Source: Rhipicephalus microplus
Lineage: Eukaryota > Arthropoda > Arachnida > Ixodida > Ixodidae
DNA: 64,000 nt
NCBI RefSeq assembly: GCF_043290135.1
Contig: NC_134710.1
Span: forward strand, 137,972,155-138,036,154
Direction: 5' to 3'
Part shown: piece by piece, positions 5,215 through 54,721 of the stretch
Position numbering within the stretch: position 1 is the stretch's first letter
Layout of the letters: each line of letters opens with the position of its first letter
Notes under the pieces: generated by a model
Told to the model about the DNA's origin: nothing
Databases searched by the model: none
What the model saw: only the letters and a program-made list of their open reading frames with translations
Translations under genes and position numbers: made by a program

Positions 5215-5456
5215 CCCCGCCGTGGTGCTCTAGTGGCTAACGTACTCGGCTGCTGACCCGGAGGTCGCGGGTTCGAATTCCGGCTGCGGCGGCTGCATTT
5301 CCGATGGAGGCGGAAATGTTGTAGGCCCGTGTGCTCAGATTTGGGTGCACGTTAAAGAACCCCAGGTGGTCTAAATTTCCGGAGCCCTCCACTACGGCGT
5401 CTCTCATAATCATATGGTAGTTTTGGGACGTTAAACCCTACATATCAATCAATCAA
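5215..5456 (+). mobile_element. Ruka-type tRNA SINE, full length, young
   Basis: The tRNA-like head carries a B box (GGTTCGAATTCC). The conserved body has GTGCACGTTAAAGAACCCCA, then TTCCGGAGCCCTCCACTACG, and it ends in (ATCA)n. It is flanked by a perfect 14-bp duplication, TGTTTTTACTGCGG, at 5201-5214 and 5457-5470, typical of LINE-driven target-primed insertion. The first bases are ambiguous with the duplication. The perfect duplication marks it as one of the youngest copies here. Confidence 0.93.
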
Positions 5457-5828
5457 TGTTTTTACTGCGGTGGTTTATGGGGCGCGAATTGTGGACTCTG
5501 CCAGGAGAAACGAAAAAGAAAAGGATTTAGTATATCAAGCTAAGGTGCTGGCCTGGCATAGTCTTCTGGATTCTGTGGATTGCGAAATCGAATTAATTTT
5601 TTGGTAATAAGTTAGATTAAAGCCGAATACTTTTCTTGAAGCAAAGGTAAGACTACGGCTTTCCTATGTTTGTCGTCTCATATGTGGCACTTGTTTTCAA
5701 GCGGAGTGTTAAAGAAGCCAAGCTGGCGGACTGGTCTGCTAGTGTTGCGGCCCCTTGGGCCCCAACCTAGCCCCGTCAAACTTGGTTTCCCCCGCTTCCC
5801 CTCCCCTTTCTGAATAATAAAGTTTATT

Positions 5829-6637: not shown

Positions 6638-6883
6638 CCCGCCGCGGTGGTCTAGTGGCTAAGGTACTCGGCTGCTGACTCGCAGGTCGCGGGTTCGAAT
6701 CCCTGCTGCGGCGGCTGCATTTCCGATGGAGGTGGAAATGTTTGTGGGCCCGTGTGCTCAGATTTGGGTGCACGTTAAAGAACCCCAGGTGGTTGAAATT
6801 TCCGGAGCCCTTCACTACGGCGTCTCTCATAATCATATGGTGGTTTTGGGACGTCAAACCCCGCATATCAATCAATCAATCGA
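6638..6883 (+). mobile_element. Ruka-type tRNA SINE, full length, young
   Basis: It has the same head, body and (ATCA)n tail as the copy at 5215 and is close to the consensus. The flanking direct repeat TTACTGTCGC lies at 6628-6637 and 6884-6893. It is the only repeat recognised in its 2-kb neighbourhood upstream of the first katanin exon. Confidence 0.92.
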
Positions 6884-6899
6884 TTACTGTCGCTACCGT

Positions 6900-26865: not shown

Positions 26866-27081
26866 TGGCTAAGGTACTCGGCTGCTGACCCGCAGGTCGC
26901 GGGATCGATACCCGACTGCGGCGGCTGCATTTCCGATAGAGGCGGAAATGTTGTAGGCCCGTGTGCTTAGATTTGGGTGCACGTTAAAGAACCCCAAGTG
27001 GTCGAAATTTCCGGAGCCCTCCACTACGGCGTCTCTCATAATCATATGGTGGTTTTGGGACGTTAAACCCCACATATCAAT
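26866..27081 (+). mobile_element. 5'-truncated Ruka-type SINE with long target duplication
   Basis: It begins inside the tRNA head (TGGCTAAGGTACTCGG), lacking about the first 20 bases. It continues at near-consensus to CACATATCAATCAA. Direct repeats of up to 17 bp (core AATAATTTATTTGATT) lie at 26849-26865 and 27082-27098. Truncation with a perfect duplication points to incomplete reverse transcription during target-primed insertion, not later deletion. Confidence 0.92.
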
Positions 27082-27654
27082 CAATAATTTATTTGATTAA
27101 TCCTAACAGTTTTGGCTGGTGGACCAGCCTTCTTCGGAGAATCTAAGTGAAAAAAGCTGTAACGGAGAAACAAAGGATGAAATGATCCAGTATTTACCCA
27201 GGATGTAGCAGTAAATGATAAGTGATATAAGGAAAGAGTGATGAACGAGTGAAGAAATACAGGAAATGTAGGAATGTTTTCTAGAGATCATTATGCGTAT
27301 ACTTTGCTACCTTACACATGGGAAGGGTAATAAAGGAGTAAAAGAGAGACAGGAAGAAAGAACAAAAAGAGCAGTGACCAGGGGTTGGCAAGGGCGAAGA
27401 TAGCACTGAGCCTGAACAGAACAGGAACGAAAGTAATCGCTAAAAAATGACGAACCTACATGCAATCACAGAGGAACGATGAGCGGTTTATGGCAGTATC
27501 GGCTAGAGGAACGGAGACTGGTAGCTTAGAGTGAAAAGAGTTATGTAACGGCAGGGTGGAGGTCTAGCCAAGTGCATTTTATCAGCTTGTTTCCACTTTC
27601 TCTCTTTGCCTCCCTCTCTCTCGCTCTACGCCGGGACTGTTTAGCGGGTTGTGG

Positions 27655-30603: not shown

Positions 30604-30838
30604 GATTGATATGTGTGGTTTAAGTCCCAAAACCACCATATGATTATGAGAGACGCCGTAGTGGAGGGCTCAGGAAATTTCGACCACCTGGAGTTCTTTA
30701 ACGTGCACCCAAATCTGAGCACACGGGCCTACAGCATTTTCGTCTCCATCGAAAATGTAGCCGCCGCAGCCGGGATTCGATCGCGTGCCCTGCGTGTGAG
30801 CAGCTCAGTACCTTAGCCACTAGGCCATCGTGGTGGGG
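30604..30838 (-). mobile_element. Ruka-type SINE, minus strand
   Basis: It is the reverse complement of the full SINE: the GATTGATATG tail side, CCAAAACCACCATATGATTA, CACCCAAATCTGAGCACACG, and the head near CCTTAGCCACTAGGCCATCG. An imperfect 15-bp duplication (CACCAGCCCAATTTT / CACCAGCCTATTTTT) at 30589-30603 and 30839-30853 supports an older insertion. Confidence 0.9.
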
Positions 30839-30853
30839 CACCAGCCTATTTTT

Positions 30854-33420: not shown

Positions 33421-35845
33421 CAGTATAGCTCAAGATTCAGCGTTCATGCTTGTGTGATTGTCAATTAAAAAAGCAAGTATTGCGCATATCTGAGGCACCA
33501 TAACAACACGTCAATATTCTGTATGTGTGTGTTTTACAAGAAAACGCATACATAAGTAATTCTAAGGACCGTAGCGTTTATCACGCTGTGCTGACCATGC
33601 AACCGTTGCACGAAAAGGCTAAGGTTTTCAACGCTTTGCTAAGACGACACGGTGGTGACACCTACCCATCGCCTCACATTCTACTGCTTATCACCTCCGA
33701 GACGGGCGCGCACGCTGCGCGCCTTGTTTTTCAAGATAACTGCCAGATAGCGCTCATGTTCATGTGTGACGTGACTTGATGCGCTAGTTCGCCTCCGCTG
33801 CACGCTCGAGGCACTCTAACGCAGCGCCTCCAGAATACCATTCACCAATTTCCTTGTGCAGAACATGAAATAAACGTTTTGTGCACTCTCTTCAGACGCA
33901 AGAGTATCGTCTTTCGACGACGTTTGCAGTATAGTAAGCAGATATGGGGCCGATTTTTCTTCTTAATTTTCTCCTTCGTCTTCGTCGTTTCCAAGATTTG
34001 CATAGTGAGCACCGTTACCTTAGCTTATGGCATTAGTATGAAACAATGGACTTTTTTTCTTTTGTTTGAGTGCGTAGAGAAAACAAGGAGTGATACGCAT
34101 ACAAAAATATTTGCAGCAGTGGTTGAAGTGATGTACCATTCAGTGCGAACTCTGCAGCTTGATTGTACGTACATGTTCAGTGCACATTGATTGATTGACT
34201 GATTGATTGAAATAACTTTATTGTCCTTCACTGCACGGGGCGAGAAATAACCTGACCTGCTCGAAACGACGTCATTTTTTATCTTTCATTTTTTATCTTT
34301 CATTTTTTTGAGTTGCTGTACGTATTCGCGTCTCCGTTCGCAGTTGTGCACTTGCATTATACGTGACGTAACCAGATCGGAAATGACTAGTACAGTTCTA
34401 CAGGGTCCGTAGTGTGCGCGTCGATCATAGTGGGGAACACGTGACCTTTTCGCGGCCTAAGATCATCCGGCGTGGTGTCCCACTAAAACGACGTGTCGTC
34501 ATTGTGGAGGAAGCATACGTGTGGTGTGACAGTAATGTCCATTGCATGGGTCATTGTTTTTGTCGCATGTACTTCCGCTGCCACTGTGGGGTATCTATAG
34601 AGTGGGCCGATCGCAGTATATCCGAATTTAATGTTGACCTTATACATATACCTACGTAATATGGTTCGCTTCGGTTCTCATTTCATCGGATTATGCCAAC
34701 GCATGCTATACCGAGTGCAAGAATGCATTTATGCTCATTTCTCAGGGATCTAAAATTTGTAATGGAGAGGCATATGTGACGCTGTTATTCATCGACCACA
34801 GGAAAGATGGATTTATTTGTCTGAGTGACGTGCTTGTGACTTTGTGTTTATAGTGCTCCTTATACATGTTGTAGTACATTTTCAATCAATCGTATTTTCT
34901 AGGTGCCCAAGGCAAACGAAACTCTGCGCAAATGCATAATTTAAAATCATTTGTTCTTGCACCTGTAGCGAGCTTTATTTCGTCGGAAGTGATCAGCTTG
35001 CGATGTCACAAAGCTGTTTGGAGCTCAGAACCTCCGCTTTAGGTTTCAGTGACAAATCCCGTGCTTGTAGTTCGTGTATTTGTAGGCAGTATGTTCCAAT
35101 TGCGAGCCTTTCTTTGAAAGCAAAATATTTAGGAAACACTCTGAAACGTGTTCGTGCCTCACGGGTCGTGCTCCTTATTTACGGGCGCATTGACCTTTAG
35201 GGGATAAGGAAGTGTTTAATGCTGACGGAAAAGCTTCGCGTGCTCTTTGTCGCGCAGCTGGCGCGAGTAACGTGTGACTGTGCCTTATCTCCGTCGTCGG
35301 TGACGTGCCGCGTATCCAGCCGCGTGTGTTGTGGCGACGACGACCACGCACCGTATATACCGGGGCTTTTCGCCCATGTAGAGCGGCGGCCGTGCTCGTC
35401 AGCCATGCGTGTGACATTAGCCGCTAATTTCCTCTCGCGGCCTATGTAGCCAGTTGATCTCGGGCACCGTTCCCGCACAGCTCAGCCGGCCGTTCAACCC
35501 CGCGGTTGCTTGCGGTTACCCCGCTACTCACCGCCTCGCGCGCTGAGGGGCCTTTGTGTATGCCCCTTTCAGGTCACGCGTGGTTTAATTGACATGCGTG
35601 TTTGCCGGGTGCGTTGGCAGTGTACAAATGTATCGACGGTCTGCACTATTTATATGCATATTACGTGGTCTATTGAGAAGCATATATATAGTTTAAGAAG
35701 GCTCAATATACTTTTCTGTTTCTTTACTTTTGACGTGTCTGAAAAACCAATAGCCTACTTCATAGCGTGATTCGTGTCCATTTACTAACGCTCGCCGATT
35801 CCGGTTCGTGGTGGGGGACGCCAGCAGCCATGATTCAAATGATGA
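33421..35845. other. Intronic stretch with one (GATT)n tract
   Basis: A (GATT)n run at 34188-34210 may be the tail of a lost minus-strand SINE, but no body follows. Otherwise nothing is recognised. Confidence 0.4.
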
Positions 35846-36095
35846 ACACACACACACACGCACACAGACACACACACGCACACAGACACAGACACGCACA
35901 CACGCACGCGCACGCACACACACACGCGCACACACACGCGCACACGCACACACGCACGCACACGCACACACGCGCACGCACACACGCACGCACACGCGCA
36001 CACGCACGCACACACGCACACGCACACGCACACACGCACACGCACGCACACATACGCACACACACACACGCGCGCGCGCGCGCGCGCGCGCGCGT
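35846..36095. repeat. 250-bp alternating CA/CG tract
   Basis: Almost pure alternating pyrimidine-purine (CACA, CGCA, CACG) ends in a perfect (CG)n of about 26 bp (36069-36095). Long His-Thr and Cys-Val frames on both strands arise only from this. Confidence 0.97.
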
Positions 36096-37791
36096 GAAAT
36101 AGAAAATTGAGGAGGGGCGGTTTATGAAGGTGAGTGGCATATGTTGTCGGCGGCAGCAACCATATATGTGTAATTGTTAAGGCACACTTGTTGATTTACA
36201 ATTGTGGTTATTAAACCCTATCTTGATGAATTGACGAGTTGACGTCACTTTGCGATCTGTGACGTCATAATTAATTCATATGCTGATGTCATTCGTGTTG
36301 GCGTTGCCGACACTCAGTTTTCGTGTTTCATGAGACATTTAAGGCTTTTGACTTAATATTTATTTAATTCTCGAAACGTGCATATTGCTGAGCTAGTACA
36401 TTTTTTATGAAGTAGCAAGCACTAGGAGACCTGATAAGTTCCAATTGTTGATACAATTTGTATTCGCCTCCCATTCCTTGGCCATTGCTTGTCCTCCCGT
36501 CATTTCTGGCGCTGTTTGCTTCTCTAAGTTATGTAATTTCGCAAAAACTAAACGTTGGCGGTCACGTAATTGCAAAACTTAGGTAACCCAGTGCTCGGAG
36601 CGTCACGTTTTACTATAGAAACTGCGTCTTGCACCAGTTTCGAAAAAATAACACTCAAAATATGCAAACCATTGTTGTCGTTCGAGGAAAAACGAAAAAG
36701 AAACGGAGCCGTCAGTGACTAAGGCATCAGCTATAGATGCGTCATCGCTGCCGAAAGGAGAACAAAGGGAAAAAAAAAACGACGTCAGGGCGTTCTATAG
36801 CTGTGGTTGTAACGGGAGCTCTTATCTATACACGTCGAAGGAGGCCTTGTGTAACCGCTATATGGGCAAAGTGACCGCTCTCTAAAAGGGGCCTCTGGCG
36901 TTCTCGTAATAACTTCTCGCAATAGTGACCGCAACTTCACTTCCAAGTACGCCAGCTTATTGAACAGGATTTCACCGGATGTGCATGTTTTCCATCGACT
37001 CTTATCTCGACGTAATCGCTGCACTTTCACTCGCTGGGCAGACCCCCGCTCGCTCTGAAGAGCCCGGTTTGTTTCAGAGCAACGCGAGTATTTTGTATTC
37101 AGCGGCAGTCTCCGCCTCGTCAGTAGGCTTCCCTGTTCGGTCTTGCCGAGTGGGCCCCGCGCGCATACCAATTGTTTTCGGGCTGTGCTGCCTCGCCTTC
37201 CAAGTATTGGCCTCGGGGACATACCGTGGCGGCACCTATGCGATGACGTCATTCATAGGATGCCGGGTTTACTTTGTCTGCTAGAACACCGCATTTCCTG
37301 CGCTTTTGCATTGGACACCGTGCATGTTTCCTTTTGTTTTGAAGCTCAGCGCTTAAAGAAGCGGTAAGACCTGATAATACGCGCAAGCAAACTACCAATC
37401 GGTTCCCCCCCCCCGTGACAGTCTTGTGACTAATTTTCATCGTCAAATCCTGACTAAGACCCGGTACAGCCATGGGGGACGATGCAAGTGGTGTCGCGAA
37501 AGCAAAGATGCCGTATCCTATCCAACTGCGCATCCTATATCTGTGACGTCAAAACGATCGCAACGCTGACCTCTCTAGTGGAGGCCCCAGCGGCCAATTA
37601 CAGGGCACGGAACCGCCACGCTGCGCGTGCGTTTGAGTCACAAGGGGGCGTCTCTTCCGTATTCGCGAAAGCTTGGTGTGATCGTGTGCCGTGACTCCCC
37701 AGTGGGTGTATCTCTGAGCGCTTAGTTTCGGTGTGATATGACGTCACCGTATGTCATTGTTTTGCCCTGCTCGTGCTGTCTTCCGAAGTCG
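36096..37791. other. Intronic stretch, nothing recognised
   Basis: A 155-codon minus-strand frame (36785-37252) overlaps a 101-codon plus frame. Neither shows domains, and the region is treated as non-coding. Confidence 0.4.
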
Positions 37792-37803: not shown

Positions 37804-38060
37804 TTGACTGATCGATGTATGGGGTTTAACGTCCCAAAACCACCATATCATTATGGGAGACGCCGCAGTGGAGGGCTCTGGAAATTTCGACCACCAGGGG
37901 GTTCGTTAACGTGCACTCAAATCTGAGCACACGGGCCTACATTTCTGCCTCCATTTTTTCCGCCTCAATCGGAAATGCAGCCGCCGCAGTCGGGATTTGA
38001 TCCCCCGACCTGCCGGTCAGCAGCCGGGTACCTTAGCCACTAGCCCACCACGGCGGGGCT
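37804..38060 (-). mobile_element. Ruka-type SINE, minus strand
   Basis: It is a full-length reverse-complement copy from GGGGTTTAACGTCCCAAAAC to the head CACTAGCCCACCACGGCGGG. It is flanked by a 12-bp duplication with one mismatch (ACGTCGCAAGTG / ACGTTGCAAGTG) at 37792-37803 and 38061-38072. It abuts the LINE fragment at 38061-38375. Confidence 0.9.
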
Positions 38061-38375
38061 ACGTTGCAAGTGATTTGTATCTGAAACCGCTTACGACAAG
38101 ACAAACCCGGCATCGACAAACTCATTCATTAACACCGTATTTCACCAGAACAAACATTTTCAAATACTCGTTCTTTCCTCGAACCATAAACGACTGGAAC
38201 TGCCTACCTCAATCGTTAACCAGCTCTGTAGAGGCACTTGAGCGTATTTAACCATGACCTATGTTTTTGTATCTTTTGTATATGATGTATCTTTTTTGTT
38301 CTTGCTGTTTTACACCTGTGTGCAATGTTATGATCTTTGCCCTTAAATGGGCCTGCAGTATTTTGTGAATAAAAA
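38061..38375 (+). mobile_element. LINE ORF2 C-terminus and 3' UTR with poly(A)
   Basis: The reading TRTNIFKYSFFPRTINDWNC and then LPQSLTSS is the conserved C-terminal tail (FFPRTI-x-W-N-x-LP) of many animal LINE reverse transcriptases. It is followed by a stop near 38249, a 3' UTR with GTGTGCAATGTTATGATC, GAATAAA at 38366 and an A-run. The 5' end is replaced by the SINE at 37804-38060. Confidence 0.8.
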
Positions 38376-46720: not shown

Positions 46721-46816
46721 GCAAGCAGAAAACACGCATTTCGCTGTTTCGTTCTCTTTTTTTCTTTATTTTAACATTGAGCCATTGGACAGTCACTACT
46801 AAAAGAAGGTAGCGCT

Positions 46817-46818
46817 TT

Positions 46819-46886
<68 letters not shown>

Positions 46887-47014
46887 TTTATTTCTTTTTC
46901 TTTCTTTTTCTTTCTTTCTTTCTTCTGACCCGCAGGTCGCGGGATCGATACCCGGCTGCGGCGTCTGCATTTTCTTCCTTTCTTTCTTTCTCTTTCTTTT
47001 TCTTCCTTTCTTTT

Positions 47015-47074
<60 letters not shown>
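46817..47074. repeat. (CTTT)n microsatellite in two blocks
   Basis: The blocks at 46817-46924 and 46972-47074 are separated by a 48-bp SINE head piece. The same SINE piece follows the second block, so block plus SINE head is duplicated in tandem. Confidence 0.95.
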
Positions 47075-47075
<1 letters not shown>

Positions 47076-47742
47076 TGACCCGCAGGTCGCGGGATCGATA
47101 CCCGGCTGCGGCGCCTGCATTTTCTATGAAGGCGAAAATGCTGTAGGCCCGTGCGCTCAGATTTGGGTGCTCTTCAAAGCATAGAGTTTCCTAATATACA
47201 CTATAGAGGGAACTCTGGCGCTAGTGTCTATGGGAGCTGCAACGCACGGCGCTTCAGCGAGCATGGGAATGATAGGTAGTACATACATTTGTCTAATTTT
47301 CGTACTTCTGGCCTGCCTCTGGCTCCGTGTGTGTTCGTGTGGCTCGGAGCTGTTTTTTTTTTTCGACACACAAAAAATGAGCAAATGTTCAGCGTTTGCG
47401 CTTCACAACCTTATTCTTTTAGGCTTAGCATTTCAAATCGGGTCACAAAGCTCAGAAGGGTTGGTTCTTTCCTTCAAAACGAAACCGTAACCAGTAATAA
47501 ACGAAGCCGCAAGTACGATTTGCCACCCGCAAGTACGAAGACTAGGCAAATGTGTGTACTACCCATCATTCCCATGGTCGCTGAACGATCGCAGCGCCAG
47601 GGTCCCCTCTAGTTGTTTTTAGGAAACTCTATGCGTCAAAGAACCCCGGGTGGTCGAAATTTCCGGAGCCCTCCACTACGGCGTCTCTCATAATCATATG
47701 GTGGTTTTGGGACGTTGAACCCCACATATAAATCAATCAGCT
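46925..47742 (+). mobile_element. Ruka-type SINE interrupted by a MITE and by CTTT repeats
   Basis: The SINE starts within its tRNA head at CTGACCCGCAGGTCGCGGG. A first 48-bp piece (46925-46971) is followed by more CTTT repeats. The same head piece recurs at 47075 and continues to 47171. After a 454-bp MITE it resumes at 47642 with AACCCCGGGTGGTCGAAATT and ends at the ACATATAAATCAATC tail. The duplicated head inside a CTTT tract suggests tandem duplication of about 150 bp by slippage or unequal exchange. Confidence 0.85.
47180..47633. mobile_element. hAT-like MITE, 454 bp, nested in a SINE
   Basis: Both ends share an inverted repeat of about 100 bp with mismatches. The first 14 bases, CATAGAGTTTCCTA, pair with TAGGAAACTCTATG, and CATGGGAATGAT pairs with ATCATTCCCATG. 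It is flanked by an 8-bp duplication with one mismatch, CTTCAAAG at 47172-47179 and CGTCAAAG at 47634-47641. Removing it restores the SINE core GTGC-ACGTTAAAGAACC, so the insertion site is exact. An 8-bp duplication and a CA...TG end fit hAT. No transposase frame is present, so it depends on an element elsewhere. Confidence 0.85.
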
Positions 47743-48923: not shown

Positions 48924-50123
48924 AATACGCCTCGGGCATTTGTTAGCGTTTCCTTCGGGATACCTAGTCTCCTCATTCCCGACAGTTTATTGGGCGCAAA
49001 ATAGAGAAAGGCTCACGTTTCTCATCTGCAATGCTGCCATTTGCTGCTGTTGAGTCTTCCAATTAATGTGCAAACGCGAAATAAACACCGCCTCTGAACG
49101 GAACGAGATTTTGAAAAGCGCTAAAGCGTCATTACTTCGTGTCTCCTCTTGGGCTGTTACTTCGCCCTTGTATCGGCGCCGATTTTCTCAAAAGTATTCA
49201 CTGCAACATGGACAGGCGTATTCATTAGGACGATGCGTGCAAAATGTACGCAAAATGATTAGACACCTGGCTTCAGTTATTTATTGCCGGTACATTTCAT
49301 ACTGTTTGGGCATCTGGAGACCGTGGGCTAGACGGCGTTTTTTCCCTTTTGTTTGCAACAGTACAGTTCTGCAGGTGTGAAGAACACTTTCTAGCCCTTT
49401 TGTTACGGGCATTGCGAAAAGTGCATGAGCGACGAGTAGCTTTTCGCTATAGCTCCGCGGGCGCTGGCAGTCGTGGTGCGGCGACTGCTGCTGCGCCGCG
49501 CACCGTGAAGTGTGGCGAGACGAGTATATTCAGCGGCGCCAGATCTCTTGCCGCACGAACTTCTTTCCACGGAGGTCGGTCTTTGGACATCCCTTTCACA
49601 GCGTGCAGTGCCTTTGAAGCGAGAATGAGTGCGCGGAACGCGTTCGTGACTTTCACGGAGAGTGTAGCATCAATGAAAGTGTACGCTATACGTGACCTAA
49701 ATAAACCGGCGGCCATCTGCAGCGGCGTTCGCAGTGTTTCGTATGTTTCGAGTTGTGATTACTGGACACTGAGCCAATAAAGGGCACTGTTCGCACAAAT
49801 TCGGGCCGAGGGGGTGGCGCTTCATTATTCGTTCACATTCCGCGAGGCTCAGGCGTACGTGACGTAAGCGATGTTGCCTGTGATGTAAGCGATGTTGCCT
49901 CCTTGTCCACTAGAGATTGGTAAGAGTAAGATTGGTCGTATACGTCGGCGCGCACTTAGCCGCGTGTACCGAAGGTATAAGAGGCGTGCGTGCAGTAGTA
50001 AACGTGCTCCGCGTTTCTGTCTACCGATACGCCCACACAATGGTGAGTGGGCGTGTTCATGCAAAGAACCTGGTGGGTTATGGTCCATATTGATCGGGAG
50101 GCGTCTTCTGCGGAGTCCCTTAT
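48924..50123. other. Sequence upstream of the LTR element
   Basis: A minus-strand frame 49716-49447 (89 codons) and a plus frame overlap in a GC-rich patch, with no domain. A 21-bp unit is repeated twice at 49859-49900 (GTGACGTAAGCGATGTTGCC and the next base, one mismatch between copies). Confidence 0.4.
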
Positions 50124-50337
50124 TGTTGTGTTCATATCGCGATAGGCTACACCTGTCGTAGTTGTCAAGTTGCGGTGATAAGTGAATGATCGCCACTGCG
50201 CATGTGTAACCTGGAGCCACTTGTATATAGGGGCGTGTGCCCTATGTTACGGTGTTCGTTGTGCTGTTGTGAGGCTGCCCTTTGGCATGCCGGAATAAAG
50301 GATTCGAAAAGCATGCCCTGGCTCTGAAGTTACAACA
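50124..50337 (+). repeat. 5' LTR (214 bp)
   Basis: It starts with TGTTGT and ends with ACAACA, a 6-bp terminal inverted repeat with TG...CA ends. It contains a TATATA box at 50224-50229 and an AATAAA signal at 50294-50299, so it can supply promoter and polyadenylation signals. No base difference from the 3' LTR was seen when compared by eye. Confidence 0.97.
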
Positions 50338-53300
50338 TGATTGGCAACGAGGATGGGATCCAGACAGCAGGAAAAACAGCAGCTGTTCGGGGTGGTGCCA
50401 TGCTCGGAAAGCTTCCAGAGTTCGATCCGGACGGTGACAACTGCGATGTTTTCTTCGAGCGATTTGAGTGTTTTGCAGCTGCTAACGACATCGCAGAGGA
50501 TAAGAAGTTGCAAGTGCTATTGACGTCCATCGGGGAGAAGGCATACGTCACGCTGAGGAGCCTTCTTCTGCCGAAAACGCCTACCCAGGAGACGTATGAC
50601 GTGGTCATCGCAACGCTGAAAAAGCACTATACCCCAAAGTGCTCCGTGGTTACGGAAAGATACCGTTTTAACCAACGCAATCAAGAACCGCACGAAAGCA
50701 TCAGCGACTTCATAGTAGGACTCAAGAAACTGGCTGCAACATGTGAGTTCGGCACATTTCTTGAGCAAGCCCTGCGAGATCGTCTCATCGCGGGATTGTG
50801 TTCCGACAGCATACGGTGCAGGCTTCTGGCGACACCTGATGCAGAATTAACCTGGGAGCGCACCTGCAGCATTGTAGCAGCCATGGAATCTGCTACTAGA
50901 GGCACTCGGGAAATGGTGGCGACCCTCGCAACAGGGACCCCCGTCGACAGCGACGTTCACTGGAACAAGGAAACGGCAGCTGGACAACGGCCAGCACCCG
51001 CTGGGGACTACGCACGGAGTTTCATGCCGAAAACCACTCCAGCTGCAGGTACACAAGAGACTAAGGGGTGTCATCGTTGCGGTGGGCGGCACTCTCCTGA
51101 AAGTTGTCCGTTCATGAACAGCCGTTGTTTTAAATGTAACAAGAAAGGCCATGTAGCCAAAATGTGTAAAACTAGGGCGCCTATTCATTGCCTGGCTAAT
51201 GATGCAACGCGTGATGAGTTGTTGACACTGTGTCACACAGACCGTAGGTCGGGCACGCCTGCCATTGTGGTGCCGTTGCTGATAAACGGAAAAAAGATTT
51301 CGATGGAGCTAGATACAGGCGCAGCCGTATCGGTAATGTGTGAAACAGAATGTTTAAAACATTTTCCCGATGCAAGTTTCAGGGAAACAGATGTTAGGCT
51401 AGTCACCTACAATGGCACGCCTGTCACGGTCAAAGGTATTATGGATGTTGATGTAGAGTACCAGAGCCAACACGTTCGCTTGCCACTAGTGATTGCTAAG
51501 GATAGCACAGGGGCTAGAATGCCAACATTATTAGGGCGGGAGTGGCTAACGAAAATAAAACTCGACTGGCTGAATGTGGTACGGGTGCAGAACGTACGGG
51601 AAGAAGCACCGATAACTGATAAGTACCGCGAGGTATTTCAACCAGGATACGGGGCCATTAAAGGGTTTCACGCTAGTATTGTGCTTAAGAAAGGCGCTAC
51701 TCCTGTTTTTTGTAAAGCGAGACCAGTGCCATACGCGTTACGCGAGCAGGTAGAACAAGAGCTGCTTAATATGGAGAAGGCAGGCATTGTGTACCGCGTG
51801 AGGCACAGTGCTTGGGCCACCCCACTGGTGGTTGTGCCGAAAAAGAATAATGGCATTCGACTGTGCGGGGATTACCGGGTCACCGTCAATCCTTTCGTGG
51901 TAGTTGACCATTACCCTCTACCGCTGCCTGAAGATATATTCACCACGTTGCAAGGTGGAGCTGTGTTTTCAGTTCTCGACCTGAGTAAGGCGTATCTGCA
52001 ACTGGAATTAGATGAGCACGCTCAGGAACTGCTCACCATTAACACGCATATGGGCCTTTTCCGGTACAGGCGCCTACCCTATGGTGTAGCCTGTGCACCA
52101 GCCGCATTTCAGGCGGTAATGGACCAAGTCCTGAGGGGCTTGCAAGGCACGGCTTGCTATCTTGACGATGTCATCATAGCGGGAGTTAGCTACGAGCAGT
52201 GTCGTGAAAGAGTGGAACAAGTACTCATGCGCCTAAGCGAATACGGTATCAAGGTCAACGCGGAAAAGTGCAGCTTGTTTAAAAAAAGAGTAACCTACTT
52301 GGGGCACGAAGTTGATGGCAATGGGTTGCACCCTACCAGTGACAAAGTAAGGGCGATAAAGAATGCACCCAAGCCAGACAATGTCACGCAACTAAAGGCA
52401 TTTTTGGGACTGGTAAATTTTTACGCAAAATTTTTACCAAATGTAGCTACAGTCCTGGAGCCTCTTCATGGCTTGCTGCGCAAGGAAACCAAGTGGCACT
52501 GGTCCCGACTATGTGACGACGCGTTCAACAAGTGTAAAACGTTGTTGACGGATGAAAGTGTGTTGGAAATATATGATGTGGCAAAAGAAATTCAGCTCAC
52601 GTGTGACGCTTCAGAGTATGGCCTAGGAGCCGTACTATCGCATGTCGTGAACGGCCAAGAGAAGCCTATCGCTTTCGCCTCAAGATCGCTGTCAGTGTCC
52701 GAGCGGAACTACGGACAAATAGAGAAAGAGGCACTGAGCATAGTATTTGGAGTAAGAAAATTCCACAAGTATCTATATGGCAGGGCATTCAACGTTTTAA
52801 CGGATCACCAACCACTGACGGCTCTTTTCGACCCAAACCGACATTGCGGTGCCGTGGCAATTGCCAGGGTACACAGATGGCTGACATTTCTAGCAGACTA
52901 TCGGTACAAAATTACGCATAAGCCGGGCTCCGCCATATCGCATGCTGATGCTTTGTCACGGCTACCGTTGTCGGAGGGGGGGCATGACGAGGACACAATT
53001 TGCTACTTTTCCACGTTGTCAGATTTGCCGCTGACCGCGAAAGACATTGAGCGTGCAACAGGGTGTGACAGTTTGCTGCGAGTTGTGCGAAATAGGATAT
53101 GGCAAGGTTGGCCAAAGACTGTCAGTGCGGAACTGCAACCGTTTTGGGTTCGCCGATTTGAGCTCACGGTGGACGAGGGCTGTATTGTTTGGAATAACAG
53201 GGTTGTTGTTCCTGAAAGCTTGAAGACTGTAGTACTAGCACTCTTGCACGAACAGCATCTCGGGATCTCAAAAATGAAGGCTGTTGCACGGTCAATGGTC

Positions 53301-54362
53301 TGGTGGCCGGGTATCGACGATGCCCTTGAACAGGCGGTGCGCAAATGTAGTATCTGTCAGGCAGTACTTCCTGCAGCGCAGCCAGTTCCTTTGTTTCCAT
53401 GGAAAGTTTGTGAACACCCGTGGCAACGAGTCCACTTGGATTTTGCGGAAAAAGAATCGCAAATCTTTCTTATTGCAGTAGATGCTTTTTCCAAATGGAT
53501 AGAGGTTAAGTGTATGCAGTCGACCACGGCTGCGAAAACAGTCGAGGCTGTGCGTTCCTGGTTTGCGTCTCACGGGTTACCTGTGGAAGTGGTTACTGAT
53601 AACGGGCCTCAGTTCCGCGCAGCGGAATTTCTAACTTTCCTGAAAGCGAATGGCGTGAAACATACGCTCACCCCACCGTATCATCCGCAATCTAATGGAG
53701 CGGCCGAGCGAGCGGTGCAAACAACTAAGAAGGCTCTCCTGAAGCAGTTAATGGATGACGAAAGGACAGGTACAAACAGGTCACTACAACATCGCCTAGA
53801 TAATTTCTTGTTCTCGTACCGCGCAACCCCGCACACTTTCACTGGGAAATCACCAGCAGAATTGTTTCTGCGACGGAAACTGAGGACCCGCTTATCATTG
53901 CTACGACCAGATGTGAACGGTGTGTTGACTGACCAAGCAGAGGAAGTGAAAACATCCGCTGACAAGCGGCGCGCAGTGTTTCGTTCTTTTGCGATGAATG
54001 AGTGCGTACTGGTACGATCAGTGCGTGGAGAGACTGTGAAGTGGTTACCGGGTAGAGTGTTGCAGGTAAAATCAATATGCACATACTTAGTGTTGGTGGG
54101 AAATCGTGTGCGATATGTGCATGCCGATCATTTGCGCCACTCCTGTCTGGAACGGGAGAAAGAGCCAGCTGTGGACGACGAGTTCGAGCTGCCGCATGTG
54201 CCCGAAGAACGGGACCCTACTACTTCGACGACGACGCTACCACCGATTACCCAACACCAGTCGAGCACGGAGCGTATGCCGCAGCCGGACATGACTACGC
54301 TCCGGAGAAGCACCCGACAACGCCGGGCGCCTGATCGCTGGGGCTATAGTAGCCGTACTTAA
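50337..54362 (+). CDS. Gag-Pol polyprotein of the Ty3/gypsy retrotransposon
   Basis: The open frame has 1341 codons with no stop or frameshift. The first ATG uses the last base of the LTR; Met22 at 50400 is an alternative start just before the capsid-like region. In order: gag; two zinc knuckles (C245-x2-C-x3-H-x4-C257 and C264-x2-C-x4-H-x4-C277); aspartic protease with D326-T-G; reverse transcriptase with Y608-L-D-D; RNase H with a T-C-D757-A-S motif; integrase with zinc residues H971, H974, C1004 and C1007, and a catalytic triad D1035, D1088, E1124 (D-x35-E). The C-terminus has an Arg-rich stretch ending RAPDRWGY and no chromodomain. Gag and pol share one frame, so no ribosomal frameshift is needed. 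All catalytic residues are present, so the element appears competent by sequence. Activity itself cannot be read from DNA. Confidence 0.97.
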   Translation: MIGNEDGIQTAGKTAAVRGGAMLGKLPEFDPDGDNCDVFFERFECFAAANDIAEDKKLQVLLTSIGEKAYVTLRSLLLPKTPTQETYDVVIATLKKHYTPKCSVVTERYRFNQRNQEPHESISDFIVGLKKLAATCEFGTFLEQALRDRLIAGLCSDSIRCRLLATPDAELTWERTCSIVAAMESATRGTREMVATLATGTPVDSDVHWNKETAAGQRPAPAGDYARSFMPKTTPAAGTQETKGCHRCGGRHSPESCPFMNSRCFKCNKKGHVAKMCKTRAPIHCLANDATRDELLTLCHTDRRSGTPAIVVPLLINGKKISMELDTGAAVSVMCETECLKHFPDASFRETDVRLVTYNGTPVTVKGIMDVDVEYQSQHVRLPLVIAKDSTGARMPTLLGREWLTKIKLDWLNVVRVQNVREEAPITDKYREVFQPGYGAIKGFHASIVLKKGATPVFCKARPVPYALREQVEQELLNMEKAGIVYRVRHSAWATPLVVVPKKNNGIRLCGDYRVTVNPFVVVDHYPLPLPEDIFTTLQGGAVFSVLDLSKAYLQLELDEHAQELLTINTHMGLFRYRRLPYGVACAPAAFQAVMDQVLRGLQGTACYLDDVIIAGVSYEQCRERVEQVLMRLSEYGIKVNAEKCSLFKKRVTYLGHEVDGNGLHPTSDKVRAIKNAPKPDNVTQLKAFLGLVNFYAKFLPNVATVLEPLHGLLRKETKWHWSRLCDDAFNKCKTLLTDESVLEIYDVAKEIQLTCDASEYGLGAVLSHVVNGQEKPIAFASRSLSVSERNYGQIEKEALSIVFGVRKFHKYLYGRAFNVLTDHQPLTALFDPNRHCGAVAIARVHRWLTFLADYRYKITHKPGSAISHADALSRLPLSEGGHDEDTICYFSTLSDLPLTAKDIERATGCDSLLRVVRNRIWQGWPKTVSAELQPFWVRRFELTVDEGCIVWNNRVVVPESLKTVVLALLHEQHLGISKMKAVARSMVWWPGIDDALEQAVRKCSICQAVLPAAQPVPLFPWKVCEHPWQRVHLDFAEKESQIFLIAVDAFSKWIEVKCMQSTTAAKTVEAVRSWFASHGLPVEVVTDNGPQFRAAEFLTFLKANGVKHTLTPPYHPQSNGAAERAVQTTKKALLKQLMDDERTGTNRSLQHRLDNFLFSYRATPHTFTGKSPAELFLRRKLRTRLSLLRPDVNGVLTDQAEEVKTSADKRRAVFRSFAMNECVLVRSVRGETVKWLPGRVLQVKSICTYLVLVGNRVRYVHADHLRHSCLEREKEPAVDDEFELPHVPEERDPTTSTTTLPPITQHQSSTERMPQPDMTTLRRSTRQRRAPDRWGYSSRT
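50342..50358 (+). promoter_or_regulatory. Primer-binding site of the LTR element
   Basis: Four bases after the left LTR comes TGGCAACGAGGATGGGA. It begins with the TGG that pairs with the CCA end of a tRNA primer. The tRNA species was not identified. The site overlaps the start of the open frame. Confidence 0.7.
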
Positions 54363-54369
54363 AGTTGTC

Positions 54370-54379
54370 AGAAAGGGAG
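54370..54379 (+). promoter_or_regulatory. Polypurine tract of the LTR element
   Basis: AGAAAGGGAG lies directly before the 3' LTR, the usual place for the primer of plus-strand DNA synthesis. It lies just past the TAA stop of the polyprotein. Confidence 0.75.
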
Positions 54380-54593
54380 TGTTGTGTTCATATCGCGATA
54401 GGCTACACCTGTCGTAGTTGTCAAGTTGCGGTGATAAGTGAATGATCGCCACTGCGCATGTGTAACCTGGAGCCACTTGTATATAGGGGCGTGTGCCCTA
54501 TGTTACGGTGTTCGTTGTGCTGTTGTGAGGCTGCCCTTTGGCATGCCGGAATAAAGGATTCGAAAAGCATGCCCTGGCTCTGAAGTTACAACA
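54380..54593 (+). repeat. 3' LTR (214 bp)
   Basis: This is the identical partner of the LTR at 50124-50337, offset by 4256 bp, with AATAAA at 54550-54555. It is followed by the CTTAT duplication at 54594-54598. Confidence 0.97.
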
Positions 54594-54721
54594 CTTATAA
54601 GCCAATGTTCAGTTTCCGCGTGTTGTAATATCCCATTATGCGTGTGCATCGAGCGCACCTGTCTCCACAAATGTCAGTATGCTAAATCTAATCCGTCACT
54701 TCGTGCATCTTTCGATTGAGA

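Follow-up and report, generated by a model that had tools for sequence, protein, structure and literature searches.

Whether the LTR retrotransposon at positions 50124-54593 of a 64,000-nucleotide stretch of the Rhipicephalus microplus genome (the window) moved recently, and what its copies record of their own reverse transcription, is the question raised by this locus. The sequence-only reading had described an intact Ty3/gypsy element with identical LTRs and a perfect CTTAT target-site duplication. Base-by-base comparison of the 5' LTR (50124-50337; 214 bp, TG..CA, 6-bp terminal inverted repeat) with the 3' LTR (54380-54593) revealed 0/214 differences, a value that for one pair only bounds divergence to <1.4%, and the duplication is present as an exact repeat at 50119-50123 and 54594-54598. 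All features between the duplications lie on the forward strand. The 5' LTR contains a TATA-like box (TATATA, 50224-50229), a presumed promoter element, and a poly(A) signal (AATAAA, 50294-50299). A putative primer-binding site (PBS) of 18 nt begins 4 bases past the LTR end (50342-50359) and is the exact complement of the 3' end plus CCA of a variant tRNA-Ser(GCT), and a candidate polypurine tract (AGAAAGGGAG, 54370-54379) precedes the 3' LTR.

The 1341-codon Gag-Pol frame (50337-54362), with an ATG straddling the LTR end, likewise carries the catalytic motifs ascribed to it (DTG, YLDD, RNase H and integrase D-35-E); an alternative start at codon 22 would give 1320 codons (50400-54362). Pfam and motif matches define a single CCHC zinc knuckle (51126-51167), followed by an aspartic protease (51273-51551; DTG at 51312-51320), recognised by its motif with three Pfam protease models scoring just short of their cut-offs. 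The reverse transcriptase (51834-52313; YLDD at 52158-52169) is supported by Pfam, a structure match and its motif, RNase H (52500-52901) by Pfam and motif pieces, the integrase zinc-binding domain (H2C2, 53208-53366) by Pfam, and the integrase core (53463-53708), in which the second D and the E are spaced 35 residues apart, by Pfam and motif. Above the Pfam cut-offs were CCHC, RVT_1 (8.5e-27), RT_RNaseH, H2C2 and rve, and simple hand-made H2C2 and GPY/F patterns gave no match in the frame. Elsewhere in the window, a dispersed repeat, perhaps a SINE, occurs on both strands with up to 96% likeness (5234-5462, 6657-6885, 26866-27094, 30619-30844, 37804-38062, 47072-47179 and 47634-47737), and short-period tandem repeats lie at 35797-36121 and 46805-46986.

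The order of protease, reverse transcriptase, RNase H and integrase between direct LTRs confirmed the placement in Ty3/gypsy. Among solved structures, the RT-RNase H region is nearest to Ty3 of yeast (PDB 4ol8, 7q5b; E 7.9e-50), and the RT is nearer to Ty3 than to retroviruses ('Enzymatic polyprotein' at 7e-35; first retroviral-type Gag-Pol entry at 2.6e-27). Tf1 is close to 1341 codons in length and is self-priming; a Tf1/sushi chromovirus was rejected because no chromodomain was detected at the integrase C terminus (E up to 1), and Tf1-like self-priming because the PBS is complementary to a tRNA. With a probability of roughly 90%, we read the element as a complete, recently inserted Mag-lineage Ty3/gypsy LTR retrotransposon, one of 23 copies of a recent burst, the Mag assignment being based on features rather than on a tree that includes named Mag elements. 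These features comprise a PBS for tRNA-Ser or Leu (here 18/18 nt to host tRNA-Ser(GCT) genes) and 5-bp duplications together with short LTRs (here exact duplications in 18/23 copies and a 214-bp LTR). The two LTR end motifs agree with those in Table 3 of PMC3601003 at 7/7 and 10/12 positions for Mag A and at 7/8 and 7/8 for Mag C, compared with 6/7 and 4/7 for CsRN1, 6/7 and 5/7 for Sushi, 6/7 and 4/7 for rGmr1, and 6/8 and 3/5 for Zam, a comparison that is not a sharp discriminator.

As far as the parts of PMC3286476 considered here go, the Mag elements of mosquitoes are similar to the tick element in their mostly 5-bp duplications, their PBS mostly for tRNA-Ser/Leu and, in several, a single ORF, and the LTRs of Culex elements (cqgypsy_15, _53 and others) span 119-304 bp in part of its Table 1. 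They differ in host and sequence, and many have two ORFs. Likewise, the Ixodes scapularis elements Mag, CsRn1, Squirrel and Toxo, as described in a portion of PMC4748124, share a tick host, Ty3/gypsy membership, CCHC and TG..CA, but have two ORFs, 4-bp duplications and GPY/F, whereas the window element has one ORF, 5-bp duplications and no GPY/F by simple pattern. The best named I. scapularis protein among the matches listed in the pol search reached 53% identity. Outside the young family, the best proteins in that search (best 120 of 3121) were P0002-P0004 (75, 73 and 70%), which group with Haemaphysalis longicornis, R. microplus and Dermacentor silvarum proteins in the gag tree. No protein named Mag was among the matches listed in the pol and gag searches, pattern scans of genome contigs and viral contigs yielded no relative, and among the papers retrieved on R. 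microplus none was, by title and abstract start, devoted to this element.

The sequence-only reading had called the copy very young and possibly still mobile, and had pointed to near-identical copies as a check. Searching the R. microplus assembly revealed 23 copies, and among the 20 that were compared pairwise (leaving out C8b, C23 and C839, which are incomplete or error-rich) differences ranged from 2 to 62 of 4470 bases, with a mean of 0.48% and with C4c as the outlier (substitutions only). With a piece of the RT, 23 rows at 99-100% identity were followed by 18 rows at 70-83% (40 of 113 candidates scored), so that the next relatives scored in this genome are at most 83% identical in RT; six stretches of these relatives were read and each contains stops in at least one matched part. 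All 40 scored matches to the LTR (of 62 candidates) were at 98-100%. The first 35 nt of the LTR matched the whole genome 46 times with up to 3 mismatches, and the 23 copies have 44 complete LTRs, which account for all 44 matches without mismatch. The two others (2 and 3 mismatches) are old, one aligning over the whole LTR (177/215 columns equal) and one partially (158/205). The search thus turned up no solo LTR belonging to the young family. A separate RT search of the same genome, with 150 matches scored, returned many matches of equal score whose frames are all exactly 1192 aa long, and a smaller group with 1214-aa frames; these look like other very homogeneous, probably young RT families.

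Both LTRs are complete in 21 copies, in which 19 pairs are identical and 2 pairs have one difference each. These 2 differences in 4494 sites correspond to K = 0.00045 (95% 0.00005 to 0.0016), or about 80,000 generations (10,000-290,000), assuming a Drosophila-like rate of 2.8e-9 per site per generation, which is not tick data. Besides the 18 copies with an exact 5-bp duplication, one more (C1a) has a duplication offset by an extra T, and no matching duplication was seen at C2b, C3e, C4c and C839. The frame is largely preserved: 19/23 copies lack a stop or frameshift relative to the window copy, and no stop-gain substitution occurs in the compared pieces of all 23. The damage consists of a 1-bp insertion in C1a, the loss of 374 bp from about element base 4060-4079 in C23 (frame end included), the loss of 1186 bp at the 3' side of C8b, and thirteen 1-bp indels relative to the window copy in C839, a copy on a 28-kb contig in which they are perhaps sequencing errors. 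Across 19 copies (C4c excluded), 28 replacement and 31 silent changes were counted, while ~72% replacement is expected without selection (p 6.6e-5), demonstrating purifying selection on the protein across copies; C4c differs from the window copy by 12 replacement and 25 silent changes. A recently active family is therefore supported by its 23 near-identical copies, the 19/21 identical LTR pairs, the lack of a detected solo LTR or stop-gain and purifying selection, so that the claim of youth and intactness holds by virtue of the whole family rather than of one LTR pair. The 800-bp left flank of the window copy has a single match in the assembly, its own locus, so that no empty allele was visible there. 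The protein P0001, which belongs to the same family but comes from another data set, has R at residue 339, where all 22 copies that can be read at this position have C, a hint that the family has copies beyond this assembly.

Identical LTRs could also be produced by gene conversion or assembly polishing, and one alternative to a recent burst is an older family in which either process made LTRs and copies uniform. The 13 one-base indels of the small contig C839 speak for it. In contrast, LTR types vary among copies, yet the two LTRs within a copy agree save for two single differences, as expected from separate recent insertions; 101/131 variants are confined to one of 20 copies (LTR sites counted in both LTRs); and the 590-bp flanks share no match >60 bp (megablast), which also led us to reject segmental duplication as the source of the copies. 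We thus regard homogenisation as highly improbable. A recent arrival by horizontal transfer from another tick or arthropod, followed by amplification, would account for the gap in RT identity (99% versus at most 83% among the candidates scored) and for the missing solo LTRs, and the gag protein P0128 of D. silvarum (75%) is closer by identity than the R. sanguineus ones listed (64-70%). However, the same genome harbours broken relatives at 81-83% in RT and the isolated complete LTR-like copy (177/215 columns), indicating that a sister lineage is an old resident, and, among the annotated or predicted proteins listed as matches, R. microplus was the only named host of a near-identical element. 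Transfer is accordingly considered unlikely, and a burst of a Mag-type family within this genome is the reading that we carry forward.

Translation of this family may begin at either of two start codons. The first ATG of the ORF uses the last LTR base and the frame crosses the PBS, while the next in-frame Met (50400, codon 22) is followed directly by a GKLPEF-like motif, in the vicinity of which many relatives start. The codon 22 start is favoured by the restriction of upstream residues, among the first 20 relatives, to P0001 of the same family. For the upstream ATG speaks that its codons stay open in 23/23 copies (50337-50399; 21 open codons across the PBS, 20 in C4c), one copy of the 23 carrying an in-frame 3-base deletion there. 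In addition, the NCBI gene model P0121 begins at this ATG, and P0122, which has 94% identity over 67% of the gag query and may derive from a decayed copy, keeps a similar extension but has Ile where Met 22 stands. Gag may begin on the LTR border or at codon 22. P0121 is the annotated R. microplus gene LOC142775122: its first 218 residues are gag of the young family (residues 22-218 equal those of copy C11c and of three further copies) and the remainder of the model did not align, a warning that gag of this family has entered the annotation as a tick gene.

Variation among the copies is unevenly distributed in two places. Across the 5' LTRs of 22 copies, sites 115-214 contain 16 variants and sites 1-114 a single one, and LTR site 130 (window 50253), 29 bases downstream of the TATA-like box, shows all four bases among 20 copies (A in 7, G in 3, C in 1 and T in the others, with C4c aligned as a deletion). 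Judging from the distance to the TATA-like box, site 130 is the probable U3/R junction, altered at strand transfer. The second place is the PBS, a substitution hotspot of the family with 7 variants in 18 nt compared with 0.42 expected from the remaining internal part (Poisson p 3.4e-7; 22 copies, without C839), and every other 18-nt window of equal variant density overlaps it. The main PBS type is carried by 16/23 copies, and the PBS supplies two of the three homoplasic internal sites (its positions 5 and 11; Fisher p 0.013, on a poorly resolved tree). All 7 PBS variants are transitions, compared with 52/95 elsewhere (Fisher p 0.02).

To relate these variants to the host, R. microplus tRNA-Ser(GCT) genes were collected by pattern search and checked with ARAGORN. 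The 36 genes called in 11 loci include 15 that predict the main PBS, 3 whose predicted PBS is exactly the one in the window copy and in C4b, and 2 that predict the C3c type, one of them with another anticodon; if ends are set one base in as in other genes, L118 predicts the C2b PBS and L117 that of the window copy. Outside the window, a large tandem tRNA-Ser(GCT)-like array (C11:162954694 onward; L113, L114) has a spacing of often ~162 bp and many variants, and the tRNA-Ser(GCT) 5'-end pattern matched the whole genome 1347 times forward and 17 times in reverse. Among the 76 matches of the array part listed, 61 are of the main type, 10 of the window type, 2 of the C3c type and 1 of the C4c type, and 2 have a change at nt 59 alone. 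A control pattern for the remaining transitions found in the same stretch single changes at nt 63 (2) and nt 73 (1; the C9 position) and no others, as well as 4 tRNA copies with double changes at nt 61, 62 or 70. The C4c PBS type is matched by one array member without an ARAGORN call and one remnant; for the C4a pair of changes, tRNA-like remnants are the only matches. Six of 8 dispersed matches (L115, L116, L119, L120, L121 and L122) were rejected as tRNA genes, since they are tRNA-Ser 3' ends with CCA joined to non-tRNA DNA, identical after the CCA in L119 and L120; they look like products of reverse transcription for >18 nt into the primer tRNA in other families.

Since several PBS variants, including that of the window copy, are the same as the 3' ends of tRNA-Ser(GCT) gene variants in the host genome, the primer tRNA may rewrite the 18-nt PBS during retrotransposition. 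This would ally the element with retroviruses and set it apart from Ty1 and Ty3, a proposal that we put forward tentatively at slightly below even odds. The 18-nt limit of the tract fits a stop at modified base 58 of the tRNA. The statistics are mixed. Six of the variant positions are shared between the PBS (7 of 15) and the tRNAs, which gives p 0.009 with single transitions only, 0.03 with nt 61 added, 0.18 with the double changes as well, and 0.03 to 0.38 without nt 73, so that counting the double changes leaves an overlap that chance alone would give (p 0.18 to 0.38); the test was chosen after the data were seen, CpG sites are common to both sides, and with >1000 array matches some agreement arises for free. 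The variants may instead reflect ordinary mutation, CpG decay or selection to escape silencing by tRNA fragments, the last having been proposed for mouse elements in the portion of PMC7472051 considered, and we hold this explanation, too, to be plausible at somewhat less than one chance in two. It is favoured by the exclusive occurrence of transitions, 3 of 7 at CpG, where transitions outside the PBS are ~3 times as frequent as other transitions. Moreover, nothing in the PBS corresponds to the tRNA variants at nt 63 and nt 61 (the latter a single change added by ARAGORN-checked genes), to the double changes or to several transversions, nor was the nt 65 change of the PBS seen in the checked tRNA genes. 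On the other side, CpG decay predicts 0.14 variants at the 4 CpG bases of the PBS, an effect too weak for the 7 seen in 18 nt, and was rejected as the sole cause. Escape from silencing predicts mismatch to the tRNA; the window/C4b, C3c and C2b types, in contrast, each match a tRNA gene exactly.

The element's cycle would run as follows. Its RNA would start near LTR site 130, a host tRNA-Ser(GCT) would prime minus-strand DNA at 50342-50359, Gag-Pol would be cleaved by its own protease, and integrase would insert the DNA with 5-bp duplications. With less certainty, the plus strand would copy 18 nt of the primer, so that a new copy could take the sequence of the priming variant. The primer of the window copy might then have been a variant common in the large tRNA-Ser array on the same chromosome. 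In the sections of PMC5371799 and PMC7472051 considered, Ty1 and Ty3 do not inherit primer tRNA sequence and retroviruses do; the PBS of yeast Ty3 is thus reported without primer tRNA inheritance, whereas the young tick family may inherit it. A small literature search retrieved no title reporting primer tRNA inheritance for an animal Ty3/gypsy element.

The young element is ordinary in kind, a recent burst of Mag-type Ty3/gypsy, and it is unusually clean (23 young copies, no solo LTR found), which makes steps of reverse transcription readable from its variation. If rewriting holds, the rule derived from yeast would not extend to this Ty3/gypsy element of an animal, and tRNA variants of the kind present in the C11 array would be made and used. 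Combined with translation from the ATG at the LTR border, the first Gag residues would be templated by a host tRNA. Under rewriting, each genomic copy would record which tRNA-Ser gene variant primed it, and the young copies together would document how primer tRNAs are chosen among >1000 tRNA-Ser-like matches in the genome.
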